DNA of 64,000 nucleotides from Opitutaceae bacterium. GTDB taxonomy: Bacteria; Verrucomicrobiota; Verrucomicrobiia; Opitutales; Opitutaceae. Under the pieces are notes generated by a model. That model saw nothing but the letters and a program-made list of their open reading frames with translations. It did no database searches and had not been told where the DNA came from. The position numbers were made by a program, and so were the translations under genes. The stretch spans positions 62,001 through 126,000 of the forward strand of contig JANQRT010000050.1 in NCBI GenBank assembly GCA_028284385.1, written 5' to 3'. Below, in pieces: positions 46,253 to 52,241 of this stretch. Numbering within the stretch: position 1 is the first letter of the stretch; each line of letters opens with the position of its first letter.

Positions 46253-46567
46253 ATGATCCTTACCAATGTGGAATCGGTGCCTGGCAAGCGTATTGTCGAG
46301 CACTACGGGTTGGTTCATGGAAGTTCGATTCGCGCTAAGCATGTCGGACGAGATATCATGGCCGGCCTGAAAAATATAGTGGGTGGCGAATTGAAAGGAT
46401 ATACTGAATTGCTGGCGGAATCCCGTAGGCAGTCTATTGAGAGACTTGTTGCTCAAGCTGAAGAACTGGGTGCCAATGCCATTATCAATATTCGGCTTTC
46501 AACTTCGTCGGTCGCGCAGGGAGCAGCCGAGATCCTGGCCTACGGGACAGCTGTCAAAGTCGAGTAG
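46253..46567 (+). CDS. YbjQ/UPF0145 family protein
   Basis: 104 residues, the standard length. TNVESVPGKRIVEHYGLVHG, GGELKGYTELLAESRRQSIE, RLVAQAEELGANAIINIRLST and EILAYGTAVKVE are the defining stretches of the YbjQ family, soluble proteins that form pentamers and whose role is unknown, sometimes annotated as heavy-metal-binding. A membrane-anchored paralogue begins six bases after its stop. Confidence 0.9.
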   Translation: MILTNVESVPGKRIVEHYGLVHGSSIRAKHVGRDIMAGLKNIVGGELKGYTELLAESRRQSIERLVAQAEELGANAIINIRLSTSSVAQGAAEILAYGTAVKVE

Positions 46568-46573
46568 TCCTTA

Positions 46574-47056
46574 ATGGAAGAATACGCTCTTCTTCTTGAG
46601 ATTGGAATTCCTCTCCTGCTTTTGCTGTTGGGGTTCGTTGCGGGCAGGGTTGCCGAAGCTAGACGCTACAGCCGGATCGCTCGTTTGGAAATAGCTTTTC
46701 AGCATATGCCGATTTTCACTTCCAAGGATCTTATGGAAATAGGGAGACGTGTAGAGTCTTCGCAGCTGACCGTTGGATCGGTTGTCGTTTCGGTCGACCA
46801 TTTTAAGCGATTTCTTGCCGCCATTCGGATGTTCTTTGGCGGGGAATTAAGAGCCTATGCGTCTCTTATCGATCTGGGAAAGCGAGAAGCCCTACTGCGC
46901 ATGAAACAGTCGTGTTCGGATGCCGATGCCGTTGTAAATGTTCGCATGCAGACCGCCGCTCTATCGCATGGCGAAAGGAAGACTTTGGGGAGTGTCGAGG
47001 TGATCGCTTACGGAACCGCCATCAAGTATCGAAAAGACGATGATGGGTTGATTTGA
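46574..47056 (+). CDS. Membrane-anchored YbjQ-like protein
   Basis: 160 residues. An N-terminal transmembrane helix (LLEIGIPLLLLLLGFVAGRVA) and a short linker precede a diverged YbjQ domain: SSQLTVGSVVVSVDHFKRFLA, FFGGELRAYASLIDLGKREA, DADAVVNVRMQTAAL, VEVIAYGTAIKY. It is a likely cytoplasmic-facing partner for the soluble YbjQ protein immediately upstream; heteromeric rings are an inference. The 266-base spacer after it holds only a short GCGGC-CTTCT-GCCGC hairpin at 47056-47071 and, somewhere, the promoter of the cytochrome operon. Confidence 0.82.
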   Translation: MEEYALLLEIGIPLLLLLLGFVAGRVAEARRYSRIARLEIAFQHMPIFTSKDLMEIGRRVESSQLTVGSVVVSVDHFKRFLAAIRMFFGGELRAYASLIDLGKREALLRMKQSCSDADAVVNVRMQTAALSHGERKTLGSVEVIAYGTAIKYRKDDDGLI

Positions 47057-47322: not shown

Positions 47323-48006
47323 ATGTTGCTAAAACCCTCTCTGGCTCCTGCTTTTCGCGTCTGTTTTCGGTCAGTGCCATTTCTCTTTCTATTAGGATTT
47401 CTGTTGGCGCTTGGCGGGTTTCTATTTGCCCGCGAATCTAAACCTGAAGCGGCGAACTCAGCACAATTGGAAGAAGAGCCAACTATTGCTGGATCGGGAG
47501 GGATTGAAAATCATTTCCAGCCCTATTTCGGCCATGACGAGGACATTCATTTGGATAAAACGCCTCCACGTCTCATCATGGGTTTGGATCTTAACCGAAT
47601 GGGGTGGACCTACAATTGCATGGAGTGCCACACTCACGTAGAAGACATTCGCTACCATCGAGAGCAGAAGTTCGAGCATGAGAATATCAATCTCGAGCAT
47701 GGAAACAATCGCTACTGCTTGAATTGCCATCATCCCGACAATCGGAACGCCTTCGTTGATTACGATGGATCGGAAATTGCCGAGCCTAACGTTACGTTGC
47801 TCTGCGCGAAATGCCATGGACCTAAGTATCGCGATTGGAAGGCGGGGGTTCATGGCAGGAAAAACGGCTATTGGGACCTGTCACAAGGAATCCAATACAA
47901 GCTACATTGTATCCAGTGTCATGACCCCCATTCGCCAGCCTTCAAGCCGATGAAGCCCTTGCCACCGCCTCTCTACCCCTCTAGAGCGCCAGCCCCAAAA
48001 CATTGA
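47323..48006 (+). CDS. Membrane-anchored tetrahaem cytochrome c
   Basis: 227 residues. An uncleaved or signal-like N-terminal helix (VPFLFLLGFLLALGGFLFA) places the rest in the periplasm. Four CxxCH haem sites: CMECH (99-103), CLNCH (132-136), CAKCH (161-165) and CIQCH (196-200), with extra His residues for axial ligation. A Pro-rich tail ends the protein. It is the first gene of a five-gene operon, with a ferredoxin-like gene 9 bases downstream. It probably shuttles electrons between the membrane NrfD/ferredoxin module and the octahaem enzyme. Confidence 0.88.
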   Translation: MLLKPSLAPAFRVCFRSVPFLFLLGFLLALGGFLFARESKPEAANSAQLEEEPTIAGSGGIENHFQPYFGHDEDIHLDKTPPRLIMGLDLNRMGWTYNCMECHTHVEDIRYHREQKFEHENINLEHGNNRYCLNCHHPDNRNAFVDYDGSEIAEPNVTLLCAKCHGPKYRDWKAGVHGRKNGYWDLSQGIQYKLHCIQCHDPHSPAFKPMKPLPPPLYPSRAPAPKH

Positions 48007-48015
48007 TACCCTTTC

Positions 48016-48984
48016 ATGCCATCGCCTGACGACAAACCGGTTAAGACTATCGAAGAAAGGATCCGTCCTGTTTCGCGACGCACCTTTCTGAAAGGTTCGG
48101 CGGCTTCCATTGTCGGGATGTCGGGGCTAGTGGCTGCTTTACAGCCATTGCTGAAACTTGAGAAGGAAGATATTACGCTCGATCAGCTTTTGCAGCGCCA
48201 TTACAAGGAGATGACGCCTGCCCAGTTGGACAAAGTGATGAAGCGGCTTCAGGAAAAGTGCGAGCGGGAGTATGGAGTTTCGGCAAGTATCCAAGATTTA
48301 AAGCCGCAGGATGGCGTTGGCTTTGCCTATGCCTTGAACTTGACGCGCTGCGTGGGTTGCAGGAAGTGCGCTCATGCCTGCCTGGCGGAAAATAATCAGT
48401 CTCGAGAGTACGACGATGATATATCAATGTCCTACATACGAGTACTAGAGCTGCAGAAAGGATCCATTAACCTGGAAACTTCTAATCAGTACTACGACTC
48501 GGAGTCGGTTCCACGCAAAGACAAGTACTACATGCCTGTTCAGTGCCATCAGTGTCGTGAATCTCCCTGTACCAAGGCGTGTCCCGTCAATGCGACGTGG
48601 CAAGAGCCTGATGGCGTGGTGACAGTCGACTATGATTGGTGTATTGGCTGCCGATACTGTATGGCTGCCTGTCCCTACGATGCGCGCCGCTTCAACTGGG
48701 AGAACCCTAAATTGGAAAAGAGGCAGATCAATCTGGATCAAGGTTATTTGAGCAATCGCCTGCGCCCCAAGGGGGTTGTAGAAAAATGCACGTTTTGTCT
48801 GCATCGGACTCGAGCGGGCAAATATCCGGCTTGTATGGAGGTTTGCCCTACAGGAGCGCGCGTGTTTGGCAACATTCTCGATCCTAATAGCGAGATCAAT
48901 TACATTCTGCACAACAAACGCGTCTACATCTTGAAGGAGGAAGTAGGAACGAATCCAAGATTCTACTACTTCTTCGATACCTGA
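48016..48984 (+). CDS. Tat-exported four-cluster iron-sulfur protein (DsrO/HybA/NrfC-like)
   Basis: 322 residues. The twin-arginine signal is SRRTFLKGSAASIVG. Four [4Fe-4S] binding sets follow: CVGCRKCAHAC, CHQCRESPCTKAC, CIGCRYCMAAC and the split CTFC...ACMEVC, the order of the DmsB/HybA/NrfC ferredoxin-like subunits. The spacer between the signal and the first cluster (~80 residues, helical) is longer than in NrfC. It would carry electrons across the periplasmic face between the NrfD-like quinol site and a haem protein. NrfD-like gene starts 10 bases after the stop. Confidence 0.93.
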   Translation: MPSPDDKPVKTIEERIRPVSRRTFLKGSAASIVGMSGLVAALQPLLKLEKEDITLDQLLQRHYKEMTPAQLDKVMKRLQEKCEREYGVSASIQDLKPQDGVGFAYALNLTRCVGCRKCAHACLAENNQSREYDDDISMSYIRVLELQKGSINLETSNQYYDSESVPRKDKYYMPVQCHQCRESPCTKACPVNATWQEPDGVVTVDYDWCIGCRYCMAACPYDARRFNWENPKLEKRQINLDQGYLSNRLRPKGVVEKCTFCLHRTRAGKYPACMEVCPTGARVFGNILDPNSEINYILHNKRVYILKEEVGTNPRFYYFFDT

Positions 48985-48994
48985 TGAAACAGAG

Positions 48995-50209
48995 ATGACC
49001 GAATATCTGACTTTTATTTTGCGAGTCTTTCGCCTCTCTTTTCAAGGAGGCTGGAAGTATTTCGCTTGGATGACTTTCCTGGCCGTTTTATCGTTCATCG
49101 GGCTGAGAGCCTACAATATTCAGCTAGTAGAGGGGCTCAGCGTTACAGGAATGACAGATTACGTCTCCTGGGGAGCGTACATTGCGAATTTCACATTTCT
49201 TGTCGGTGTAGCGGCCGCTGCTGTTATGCTGGTCATACCGGCTTACGTTTACGAAATCAAGTCGATGAAGCAGGTGGTAATACTTGGCGAAATGATGGCG
49301 ATCGCTGTCATTATCATGTGCCTTCTCTTCGTAGTGGTGGATCTAGGACGTCCGGAACGTTTTCTGCACATGATCCCGCCGTTCGGAAAATTCAATTTCC
49401 CCATGTCCATGCTTTCCTGGGACGTGATTGCGCTGAACGGCTACCTACTGCTCAACCTGCATATCTGCGGCTATCTTCTTTATAAGCGTTATCGAGGCGA
49501 AGCTCCGACTGCTAGATTCTACATACCCTTCGTCTTTATCGCCATCGTTTGGGCTATTAGCATTCATACTGTAACTGCCTTCCTTTATGTGGGCTTGGCG
49601 GGCCGTCCCTTCTGGAATCATCCAATTGTCGCCCCACGATTTCTGGCTTCCGCGTTTTCCGCCGGTCCTGCCTTGCTGGTCATCACCTTTCAATTCATCC
49701 GCAAATTCTGCCATCACACCATTAGCGATGAATCCATTTTCCTGTTACGTCGTATCATTACTATCGCTATGCTGATTAATCTATTCCTACTTGGCTGCGA
49801 AGTATTTACCGAATTCTATTCCGGGACCTATCACGTGGCTTCGGCCACCTATCTTTTTCTTGGACTCCACGGTCATAATAGTCTCGTTCCGTGGATTTGG
49901 ACGGCGATAGGCATGAATTGCGTTGCTATGATTCTGCTTCTCACCCCTCTCTCGCGCCGCTTGGAGTGGCTTAACGCCGCTTGTATGCTGCTCTTCGTGG
50001 GCATCTGGATCGAGAAGGGGATGGGGCTGATTATCCCAGGCTTTGTACCCAATCCTTTGGGACAAATAGTCGAGTACCTTCCATCGGTAAATGAAACGCT
50101 GATTTGCATGGGGATCTGGGCCTTCGGAGCCCTGATCTATTCATGGATGCTACGAGTAGCGGTTCCTATTTTAAAAGGAGAGCTCCGGGCGAGAGGAGCT
50201 GAGGCTTAG
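48995..50209 (+). CDS. NrfD/PsrC-type membrane quinol-interacting subunit (DsrP/HybB-like)
   Basis: 404 residues with about ten transmembrane helices, no haem motifs. NrfD-family features: DYVSWGAYIANFTFLVGVAA near the first helices, VVDLGRPERFLHM, FNFPMSMLSWDVIALNGYLL, and SIHTVTAFLYVGLAGRPFWN followed by APRFLASAFSAGPAL. The GRPFW...APRFLASAF block resembles DsrP and related long NrfD proteins. It exchanges electrons between menaquinone and the Tat-exported ferredoxin subunit. 24 bases separate it from the octahaem gene, which has its own strong ribosome site. Confidence 0.93.
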   Translation: MTEYLTFILRVFRLSFQGGWKYFAWMTFLAVLSFIGLRAYNIQLVEGLSVTGMTDYVSWGAYIANFTFLVGVAAAAVMLVIPAYVYEIKSMKQVVILGEMMAIAVIIMCLLFVVVDLGRPERFLHMIPPFGKFNFPMSMLSWDVIALNGYLLLNLHICGYLLYKRYRGEAPTARFYIPFVFIAIVWAISIHTVTAFLYVGLAGRPFWNHPIVAPRFLASAFSAGPALLVITFQFIRKFCHHTISDESIFLLRRIITIAMLINLFLLGCEVFTEFYSGTYHVASATYLFLGLHGHNSLVPWIWTAIGMNCVAMILLLTPLSRRLEWLNAACMLLFVGIWIEKGMGLIIPGFVPNPLGQIVEYLPSVNETLICMGIWAFGALIYSWMLRVAVPILKGELRARGAEA

Positions 50210-50221
50210 AAAATATTTCAC

Positions 50222-50227
50222 AGGAGG
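50222..50227 (+). promoter_or_regulatory. Ribosome binding site of the octahaem cytochrome gene
   Basis: AGGAGG with six bases before ATG 50234, one of the few consensus sites in the window, suggesting high translation of the terminal enzyme relative to its redox partners. Confidence 0.6.
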
Positions 50228-50233
50228 CATAAA

Positions 50234-51673
50234 ATGAAACGTATCCAAAATCTCATAGCACTTGCAATAGCCCTTACGTGTAGCGCCGCGACGGCTTTTG
50301 CGGGTTTCACATTGAAGCAGATGTCGCCGCAGTCCCAAGCGTGCGTAGAGTGTCACAAGAATGAAAGCGTTGGGGTCTACGAGCAGTGGGGTAATAGCCA
50401 CCATTTTAGAGCGAACGTGGGCTGTTTCGAATGTCATGCGGCTGTAAGCGACGATTCCGACGCGTTCGAGCACTATGGCGAAACTATATCGGTCATCGTT
50501 TCGCCTAAGGACTGCGCTCGCTGTCATGAGCACGAAGTGAGCGAGTTCAACAGCTCCCATCATGCCAAGGGCGGGCGTATCTTAGGTTCGTTGGACAATA
50601 TTCTAGCCGAGGTCGTCGAGGGAAATAATGGCTTGGTCACTCCGGGCTTTCCTCACGGAGTGAGCGCGGCTGCGGTCAATGGTTGCTGGCAGTGTCATGG
50701 CTCCGAAGTAAAAGTTCTCACTGATGGGTCGCTGGATCCGGCTACCTGGCCTAATACGGGTATTGGCCGCATCAATCCTGATGGTTCGGAGGGAGCTTGT
50801 ACCGCTTGCCATACGCGCCACGACTTTTCGTCCGCTCAAGCGCGTACGCCAGGGACTTGCGGCAAATGCCACATGGGGCCCGACCACCCGCAACTTGAGA
50901 TTTTCAATGAGTCCAAGCATGGTATTGCCTACTACGCGAATGTCGACAAGATGAATCTCGACAGTCCCAAATGGGTTGTTGGCGAAGATTACGATGCTGC
51001 TCCCACCTGCGCCACCTGCCACATGAGCGCCACCAAAGATCAAGCCGTGACTCACGATGTCGGTCTTCGCATTTCTTGGAATAATCGTCCTCCTATTTCA
51101 GTTCGGCCTGAAGTATCGGACGCTAAACTTGGTTTGCCGGGAAAAGACATACCTTGGCAAGAGCGTCGTGCTAACATGGAGAATGTCTGTATTAGCTGTC
51201 ACAATCAGAATTTCGTCGACTCTTTCTACATCCAATACGACGGGCTCATCGATCTCTATCATGAGAAATTCGCCAAGCCTGGTTTGGCTCTCTATGAGGC
51301 TGCTCAGCCGCTTTTGAATAAGCCCAAATTCTCCAACAAAATCGATTTCGTTTGGTTCGAACTCTGGCATCATGAAGGCCGTCGAGCGCGTCATGGGGCT
51401 TCAATGATGGGGCCAGACTACACGCACTGGCATGGGACTTATGACATCGCCAAGAACTGGTACACTGAATACATTCCCGAATTGCGAGAATTGGCTCATC
51501 ATAACTTGCATTCCGATGACGCGGCTAAAAAAGAGGCTGCTGAAAAGCTGCAAGCCTTGCTTGAGAAAACGTTGAATGACGACAACCATCGTTGGTATTT
51601 GAACAAGATGCCTGCAGAGGAAAAAGCCCGACGCGATGCGGCTAGACAGGAATTCCAAGGCAGGTACCAATAA
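50234..51673 (+). CDS. Octahaem cytochrome c, hydroxylamine oxidoreductase (HAO)-like
   Basis: 479 residues with a signal peptide (cleavage near AFA-GF, 23). Eight CxxCH sites at 37, 64, 94, 151, 189, 209, 259 and 319. The block SKHGIAYY, APTCATCHM, THDVGLRISWNNRPP and the C-terminal NWYTEYIPELRELAHH match the octahaem HAO family. In ammonia oxidisers haem 4 is the catalytic P460, cross-linked to a C-terminal-domain Tyr. A Tyr at 396 (GPDYTHWHG) is a candidate equivalent but needs alignment; family members lacking the cross-link act as reductases of nitrite or hydroxylamine. Context (NrfD/ferredoxin/tetrahaem) suggests a quinol-linked reductase. Confidence 0.88.
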   Translation: MKRIQNLIALAIALTCSAATAFAGFTLKQMSPQSQACVECHKNESVGVYEQWGNSHHFRANVGCFECHAAVSDDSDAFEHYGETISVIVSPKDCARCHEHEVSEFNSSHHAKGGRILGSLDNILAEVVEGNNGLVTPGFPHGVSAAAVNGCWQCHGSEVKVLTDGSLDPATWPNTGIGRINPDGSEGACTACHTRHDFSSAQARTPGTCGKCHMGPDHPQLEIFNESKHGIAYYANVDKMNLDSPKWVVGEDYDAAPTCATCHMSATKDQAVTHDVGLRISWNNRPPISVRPEVSDAKLGLPGKDIPWQERRANMENVCISCHNQNFVDSFYIQYDGLIDLYHEKFAKPGLALYEAAQPLLNKPKFSNKIDFVWFELWHHEGRRARHGASMMGPDYTHWHGTYDIAKNWYTEYIPELRELAHHNLHSDDAAKKEAAEKLQALLEKTLNDDNHRWYLNKMPAEEKARRDAARQEFQGRYQ

Positions 51674-51713
51674 ATTGGAGAGAATATTTTCAAATATCCA
51701 TCAATCCGATACA

Positions 51714-52241
51714 ATGATCTTCGATCCCGTAGCTAAGTTTAGAGCTCTTTCTCCTGAAGCTCAAATAAAGGAAGGCGAGGACAGTCTGCTGGCTCACATT
51801 CTGGAGCGAGCCTCGGTCGCCCATGTCCGATACCCTAATCTAGGTATGGATACAGTCGATACGTTTCTTTCCGATCGCGATTGTCTTCGCTATCCAACTC
51901 GCTATGTTTACGAGTTCGGGGCCGAAATGGCTCCCCATCAGTTTGCTCAACCTGAACCTGATTTCCGTTCCGACGATTCGCAAGCCCTTGTCATTTATCT
52001 GAGACCACCGCTTCGAGAGCGTCCGGAATACGCGTTGCTTGCCATAGCCTATATGATCCCGCTGATTAACTACGGAGAGGTGATACGCGATGAACATTGT
52101 CTGGTCTATGCCGCGGCCTTGCTTGGAATGACTGAGGACAAGTGCTATGAGAGCCTTATGGGCCTGGCTCAGTATTGCGAATGCGAAGTTATGTATCCAG
52201 ATAATAGTGATATGCCTCATGTCTGTTCTTGTCCCGAGTAG
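51714..52241 (+). CDS. Cytoplasmic protein of unknown function with Cys-rich tail
   Basis: 175 residues from ATG 51714 (the frame continues upstream into the octahaem gene tail). No signal peptide. I do not recognise a family. The last 45 residues hold five Cys (KCYESLMGLAQYCECEVM, then HVCSCPE), a plausible metal or Fe-S site, and a His. The middle is helical (ALLAIAYMIPLINYGEVIRD). It lies 40 bases after the octahaem stop on the same strand and is the last gene of the cytochrome operon; a maturation, sensor or redox role is only a guess. Confidence 0.65.
   Translation: MIFDPVAKFRALSPEAQIKEGEDSLLAHILERASVAHVRYPNLGMDTVDTFLSDRDCLRYPTRYVYEFGAEMAPHQFAQPEPDFRSDDSQALVIYLRPPLRERPEYALLAIAYMIPLINYGEVIRDEHCLVYAAALLGMTEDKCYESLMGLAQYCECEVMYPDNSDMPHVCSCPE

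Follow-up and report, generated by a model that had tools for sequence, protein, structure and literature searches.

How an octahaem cytochrome of the HAO type exchanges electrons with the quinone pool, and in which direction, is the question raised by five adjacent genes in a 64,000-nucleotide stretch of DNA from an Opitutaceae bacterium (Verrucomicrobiota; GenBank assembly GCA_028284385.1, contig JANQRT010000050.1, positions 62,001 to 126,000 of the forward strand). This whole stretch is referred to as the window, and the genes as A to E. They encode a tetrahaem c-type cytochrome that is exported or membrane-anchored (A, 47323..48006, 227 amino acids), a Tat-exported protein of the DsrO/NrfC type with four [4Fe-4S] motifs (B, 48016..48984, 322 amino acids), a DsrP-like integral membrane quinol protein of the NrfD family (C, 48995..50209, 404 amino acids), an HAO-like octahaem cytochrome c that is proposed to be a nitrite reductase (D, 50234..51673, 479 amino acids) and a putative accessory protein (E, 51714..52241, 175 amino acids) that is probably cytoplasmic, no export signal being seen. 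All five lie on the plus strand with gaps of 9, 10, 24 and 40 bases, and the coordinates thus bear out the close same-strand spacing reported in a preliminary description of this DNA. With a probability of roughly 70%, the operon would specify a periplasm-facing quinol:nitrite oxidoreductase of anaerobic respiration with an NrfABCD-like layout, in which the HAO-like octahaem enzyme fills the role of NrfA.

The arrangement was compared in the best 80 relatives of D from a collection of genome contigs, 60 of which were testable because more than 3.5 kb of upstream sequence was available. Order and single strand of A-B-C-D are kept in 44 of these 60 relatives, and given this conservation the grouping is no chance arrangement. 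The loci come from metagenome-assembled genomes labelled Verrucomicrobiota, Planctomycetota, Hydrogenedentota, Myxococcota and Deltaproteobacteria, and in an Omnitrophota locus C and D stand at the edge of a contig. Two loci show the order D-A-B-C, three contain A, B and C but failed the order test (L012, L039, L070) and one contains B and C (L005). Loci that are more distant in D also tend to be more distant in A, B and C (r = 0.60, 0.63 and 0.74, respectively, for pairwise distances over 62 loci); none of 999 permutations reached such values, which shared descent alone could nevertheless produce. The conserved synteny, which spans Verrucomicrobiota, Planctomycetota and further phyla, supports the earlier proposal of a quinol-linked respiratory operon around an HAO-like octahaem enzyme. 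The operon is real and conserved, and its predicted function makes it a new variant among nitrite-reducing systems.

The identities originally assigned to the first four products were likewise confirmed. In A, four CxxCH motifs (residues 99, 132, 161 and 196) follow a hydrophobic N-terminus, and four such motifs occur in 64 of 66 homologues. The protein matches Cytochrome_C7 weakly, below the cut-off, and NrfB (PRK11659) weakly and far below it. An alignment of B with its homologues revealed conservation of at least 97% for the twin-arginine pair R21-R22 and for the 16 cluster cysteines, except C115 (85-97%); B matches Fer4 and Fer4_11 of Pfam and scores 180 bits with DsrO, just below the cut-off of 200. 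C matches the Pfam family NrfD (3.9e-41) and reaches 425 bits with the NCBIfam model of DsrP, which is above the cut-off of 350. Hydropathy indicates about 10 transmembrane helices, and S138 and D143 align with the quinone-site residues S164 and D169 of ActC.

D contains eight plain CxxCH motifs and matches Multi-haem_cyto of Pfam (1.1e-25). Among PDB sequences the Ignicoccus OCC (4QO5) comes first (8.6e-53), followed by HAO (about 1e-20 to 1e-23), the Kuenenia HAO-like enzyme 6H5L, HOX and HDH. Fold matches of an AlphaFold2 model follow the same order, with 4QO5 best and ONR far behind; as the model is of moderate quality (pLDDT 65), they support the sequence result rather than standing alone. 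The active-site pair Asp267-His268 of HAO aligns with D217-H218 of D, and equivalents of D267 and H268 are found in 109 and 104, respectively, of 109 enzymes of a wider group. The tyrosine that forms the cross-link in HAO (Y467 in N. europaea) falls on H398 or, since the column is uncertain by one place, on the neighbouring W399, so that tyrosine stands at neither position. Across the 109 enzymes this column holds His in 84, Gln in 17, Trp and Thr in three each, Ser and Ala in one each, and Tyr in none. A missing cross-link tyrosine is the marker used in the literature for reductive HAO-like members (PMC5317091, PMC3701875). Two homologues of D, one with a stop inside the match (L037:549-1982) and one predicted with only six CxxCH motifs (L119), may represent damaged genes or assembly errors.

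A further indication of substrate comes from the surroundings of the operon in relatives. Of 80 loci, 25 encode NapA no more than 8 kb away from D, and NapB and NapD were identified near the operons by family models. In L002 the order is NapA-NapB-A-B-C-D-E, and in L024 and L069 it is A-B-C-D-NapA-NapB-E, with the nap genes inside the operon. The NapB-like subunits by the operons (L002:5477-6106, L024:13098-13718 and others) carry four CxxCH motifs, the usual number being two.

Three observations argue for the reductive direction: D lacks the cross-link tyrosine, relatives carry Nap genes in or by the operon, and the operon includes a quinol module. The preliminary description had left nitrite or hydroxylamine reduction and the reverse reaction side by side; nitrite reduction is now favoured, and hydroxylamine oxidation is disfavoured by the same Nap genes and tyrosine position. 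In the proposed scheme, C would oxidise menaquinol and pass the electrons to the [4Fe-4S] protein B, from there to the tetrahaem cytochrome A, which would take the place of NrfB, and finally to D in the place of NrfA. As judged from sequence, D would reduce nitrite, most likely to ammonium and possibly to nitric oxide (NO) or hydroxylamine. Free hydroxylamine as an end product is disfavoured in the window's genome because Hcp was not detected there (the genome is 97% complete).

Several points weigh against this reading. The order of electron transfer is drawn by analogy. D can exist outside the operon, as 11 of the 60 testable relatives have no C within the stretch and lack A to C nearby (L036, L040, L044, L048, L054, L058, L060, L063, L065, L072 and L074). 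Many genomes with D lack NapA: even a loose NapA-type match (E <= 1e-60) was obtained in only 27 of 50 whole genomes encoding D, and part of these 27 are other molybdenum enzymes at 31-39% identity, so that true NapA is rarer still. Neither NapA, NarG nor NrfA was detected in the window's genome. The nitrite must hence come from elsewhere, and the Nap argument rests on the relatives. The best NapA match in this genome (33%) turned out to be a NasC/Fdh-like enzyme and the other a YdeP/FdhF-like enzyme; the NarG search gave only 20 bits, the sole PF02335 (NrfA) match is a TPR multihaem protein, and no second copy of D was found in the genome. The NasC/Fdh-like molybdenum enzyme (G000:C51, L082:5-3576) adjoins a DmsB-like protein that has a hydrophobic C-terminal part.

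The lack of detectable Nap and Nar in the window's genome would also suit an enzyme that removes NO or hydroxylamine, or that stops at one of them, and thus serves detoxification or partial denitrification instead of ammonium-forming respiration. A precedent is the anammox HAO-like enzyme without the tyrosine link, which is reported, as cited in two papers, to convert nitrite to NO (PMC12758564, PMC11266412). The joint conservation of a dedicated quinol module and the enzyme is more in keeping with respiration, and a genome without Hcp is poorly equipped to handle hydroxylamine, which makes this explanation unlikely. An operon working in the oxidative direction, in which D would feed the quinone pool by oxidising hydroxylamine or some other reduced compound of nitrogen, deserves consideration since D retains the Asp-His pair of HAO, and since NrfD-type modules run either way in other complexes (PMC8076601). 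The absence of tyrosine at the Y467 column, the large distance of D from HAO and HOX in the tree described below and the nitrate reductase genes in or by the operon of relatives all speak against it. Moreover, electron transfer from hydroxylamine to menaquinone is energetically unfavourable, and we regard an oxidative operon as very unlikely.

Reduction of a sulfur compound, either sulfite as by MccACD or tetrathionate as by OTR, is suggested by the resemblance of B and C to DsrO and DsrP and by MccACD itself, in which an NrfCD-type module serves an octahaem enzyme (PMC8076601). D, however, has eight plain CxxCH motifs and no long-spaced haem motif CX(11-17)CH of the MccA/SirA kind. Searches of NCBIfam profiles and PDB sequences with D yielded no match to OTR, ONR or MccA; by fold, ONR appeared only at E 0.29 or worse, and OTR and MccA were not among the matches listed. 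Grouping of D with tetrathionate reductases, which the preliminary description had named as one of two outcomes that would overturn its proposal, was thus found neither by profile, by PDB sequence nor among the fold matches listed; the other outcome, synteny confined to this genome, is contradicted by the conserved gene order. As the operons of relatives sit with Nap rather than with sulfur genes, a sulfur substrate appears scarcely probable.

The modules for electron input were compared on a tree of octahaem enzymes (115 rows, calculated by a quick method and rooted at the midpoint), in which HAO, HOX and 6H5L sit on long branches. The NrfCD-linked enzymes form one side of a branch with an SH-aLRT value of 97, five NrfH-linked enzymes form a branch of their own (SH-aLRT 99) and twelve enzymes linked to Rieske and cytochrome b proteins are near-contiguous. 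The three module states require two changes on the tree, which is the minimum. What is new is that the NrfCD-linked enzymes belong to one clade, and that the partners of its relatives are NrfH-type or Rieske/cytochrome b modules. A literature search that covered few subscription journals gave no description of an NrfCD-linked clade across these phyla. 4QO5 branches with a different group than D. In Planctomycetota, related octahaem enzymes adjoin Rieske and cytochrome b genes, some of them together with NapA (L121-L125, L128-L134, L160). Two enzymes assigned to the Methylacidiphilum-type HAO from phylum position and similarity carry an extra N-terminal cytochrome c-552-like domain (L092:3197-5344, L093:1980-4136).

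It is a tentative idea that NrfCD, a tetrahaem carrier and an HAO-like octahaem enzyme constitute a distinct and widespread nitrite-ammonifying complex whose quinol oxidation may conserve energy. The membrane subunit, being of the DsrP/NrfD kind, may contain ion channels and might therefore allow energy conservation, unlike feeding by NrfH-type cytochromes. If the proposed function is true, many uncultured Planctomycetota, Verrucomicrobiota and their neighbours would convert nitrite to ammonium, or to a different product, despite their lack of NrfA, and surveys of metagenomes in which such genes are simply tagged as hao or Onr would misread their role. An Onr-like octahaem protein has been noted in Phycisphaerae genomes (PMC11266412). 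One enzyme clade with three quinol modules would also offer a natural comparison of how electron input is swapped and of whether this affects energy conservation.

Gene E is predicted to encode an accessory or maturation factor. In 35 loci it is found no more than 400 bases from D, and in others it follows inserted nap genes. Its open reading frame extends from 51636, and an alignment places the start of the homologues at the methionine codon at 51714, so that it does not overlap D. The protein has no match in Pfam, NCBIfam or PDB sequences. For a confident AlphaFold2 model (pLDDT 94), neither the PDB nor the viral BFVD collection contained a fold of significant similarity, and hints of an IrrE/SprT-like protein were weak and not significant. 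The label 'Cys-tailed' initially given to E does not describe the family, several homologues being devoid of the cysteine-rich tail. Two FNR-like boxes occur in the window, as many as expected by chance and neither near the operon, and promoter and terminator scans performed no better than on shuffled sequence. Two adjoining genes of the YbjQ family (putative heavy-metal-binding proteins; 46253-46567 and 46574-47056) are located just upstream of the operon.

Among known systems, DsrMKJOP shares with the operon the likeness of B to DsrO and of C to DsrP, but equivalents of DsrM, DsrK and the triheme DsrJ are missing among the operon genes, the carrier A has four haems instead of three and an octahaem enzyme is added. 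The solved structure nearest to D by sequence and fold, the OCC of Ignicoccus hospitalis (4QO5), has Val at the position of the active-site residue His218 of D. MccACD/SirA also has an octahaem enzyme that receives its electrons from a module of the NrfCD type; it differs by the long haem motif and by the sequence of MccA, to which D shows no match, and MccD is described with 8 transmembrane helices (PMC8076601) versus about 10 in C. The epsilonproteobacterial or epsilon-Hao type (Nautilia reverse-HURM, Caldithrix, Deferribacter) resembles D, by description, as a Tyr-less, Nap-associated HAO-like octahaem enzyme proposed to reduce nitrite. HAO-like enzymes beside Nap have been reported from Caldithrix (PMC5317091) and Deferribacter (PMC6896113), and a NapC-fed form from Nautilia (PMC3701875). 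In this type the enzyme obtains electrons from a cytochrome of the NapC/NrfH type or from a Rieske/cytochrome b module instead of NrfCD, and its Nap association holds for the relatives of D, not for the window's own genome.

The preliminary description had doubted whether NrfC/NrfD is a standard partner of such enzymes. This doubt can be dropped, since NrfABCD and the octahaem MccACD both use this module (PMC8076601) and a Hao-NrfD locus is known from Thermosulfurimonas dismutans (PMC5276818). The formate-dependent nitrite reductase NrfABCD shares with the operon an NrfD-NrfC quinol module, a soluble multihaem carrier and a multihaem nitrite reductase (PMC8076601, PMC12285233). It differs in that NrfA, not detected in the window's genome, is pentahaem and usually contains CxxCK, versus the octahaem D, that its carrier holds five haems versus four in A, and that C reaches a far better score with DsrP than with NrfD. 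Nitrite reduction was also proposed for the loci TDIS_0606-0609 of T. dismutans and DBT_2326-2329 of Dissulfuribacter thermophilus, with sulfur compounds kept as an alternative (PMC5276818). These bacteria belong to other phyla and their cytochromes are described as transmembrane (PMC5276818); compared by the published description, their loci share with the operon a Hao-like multihaem protein, an NrfD, a 4Fe-4S protein and a cytochrome c by a Nap cluster.

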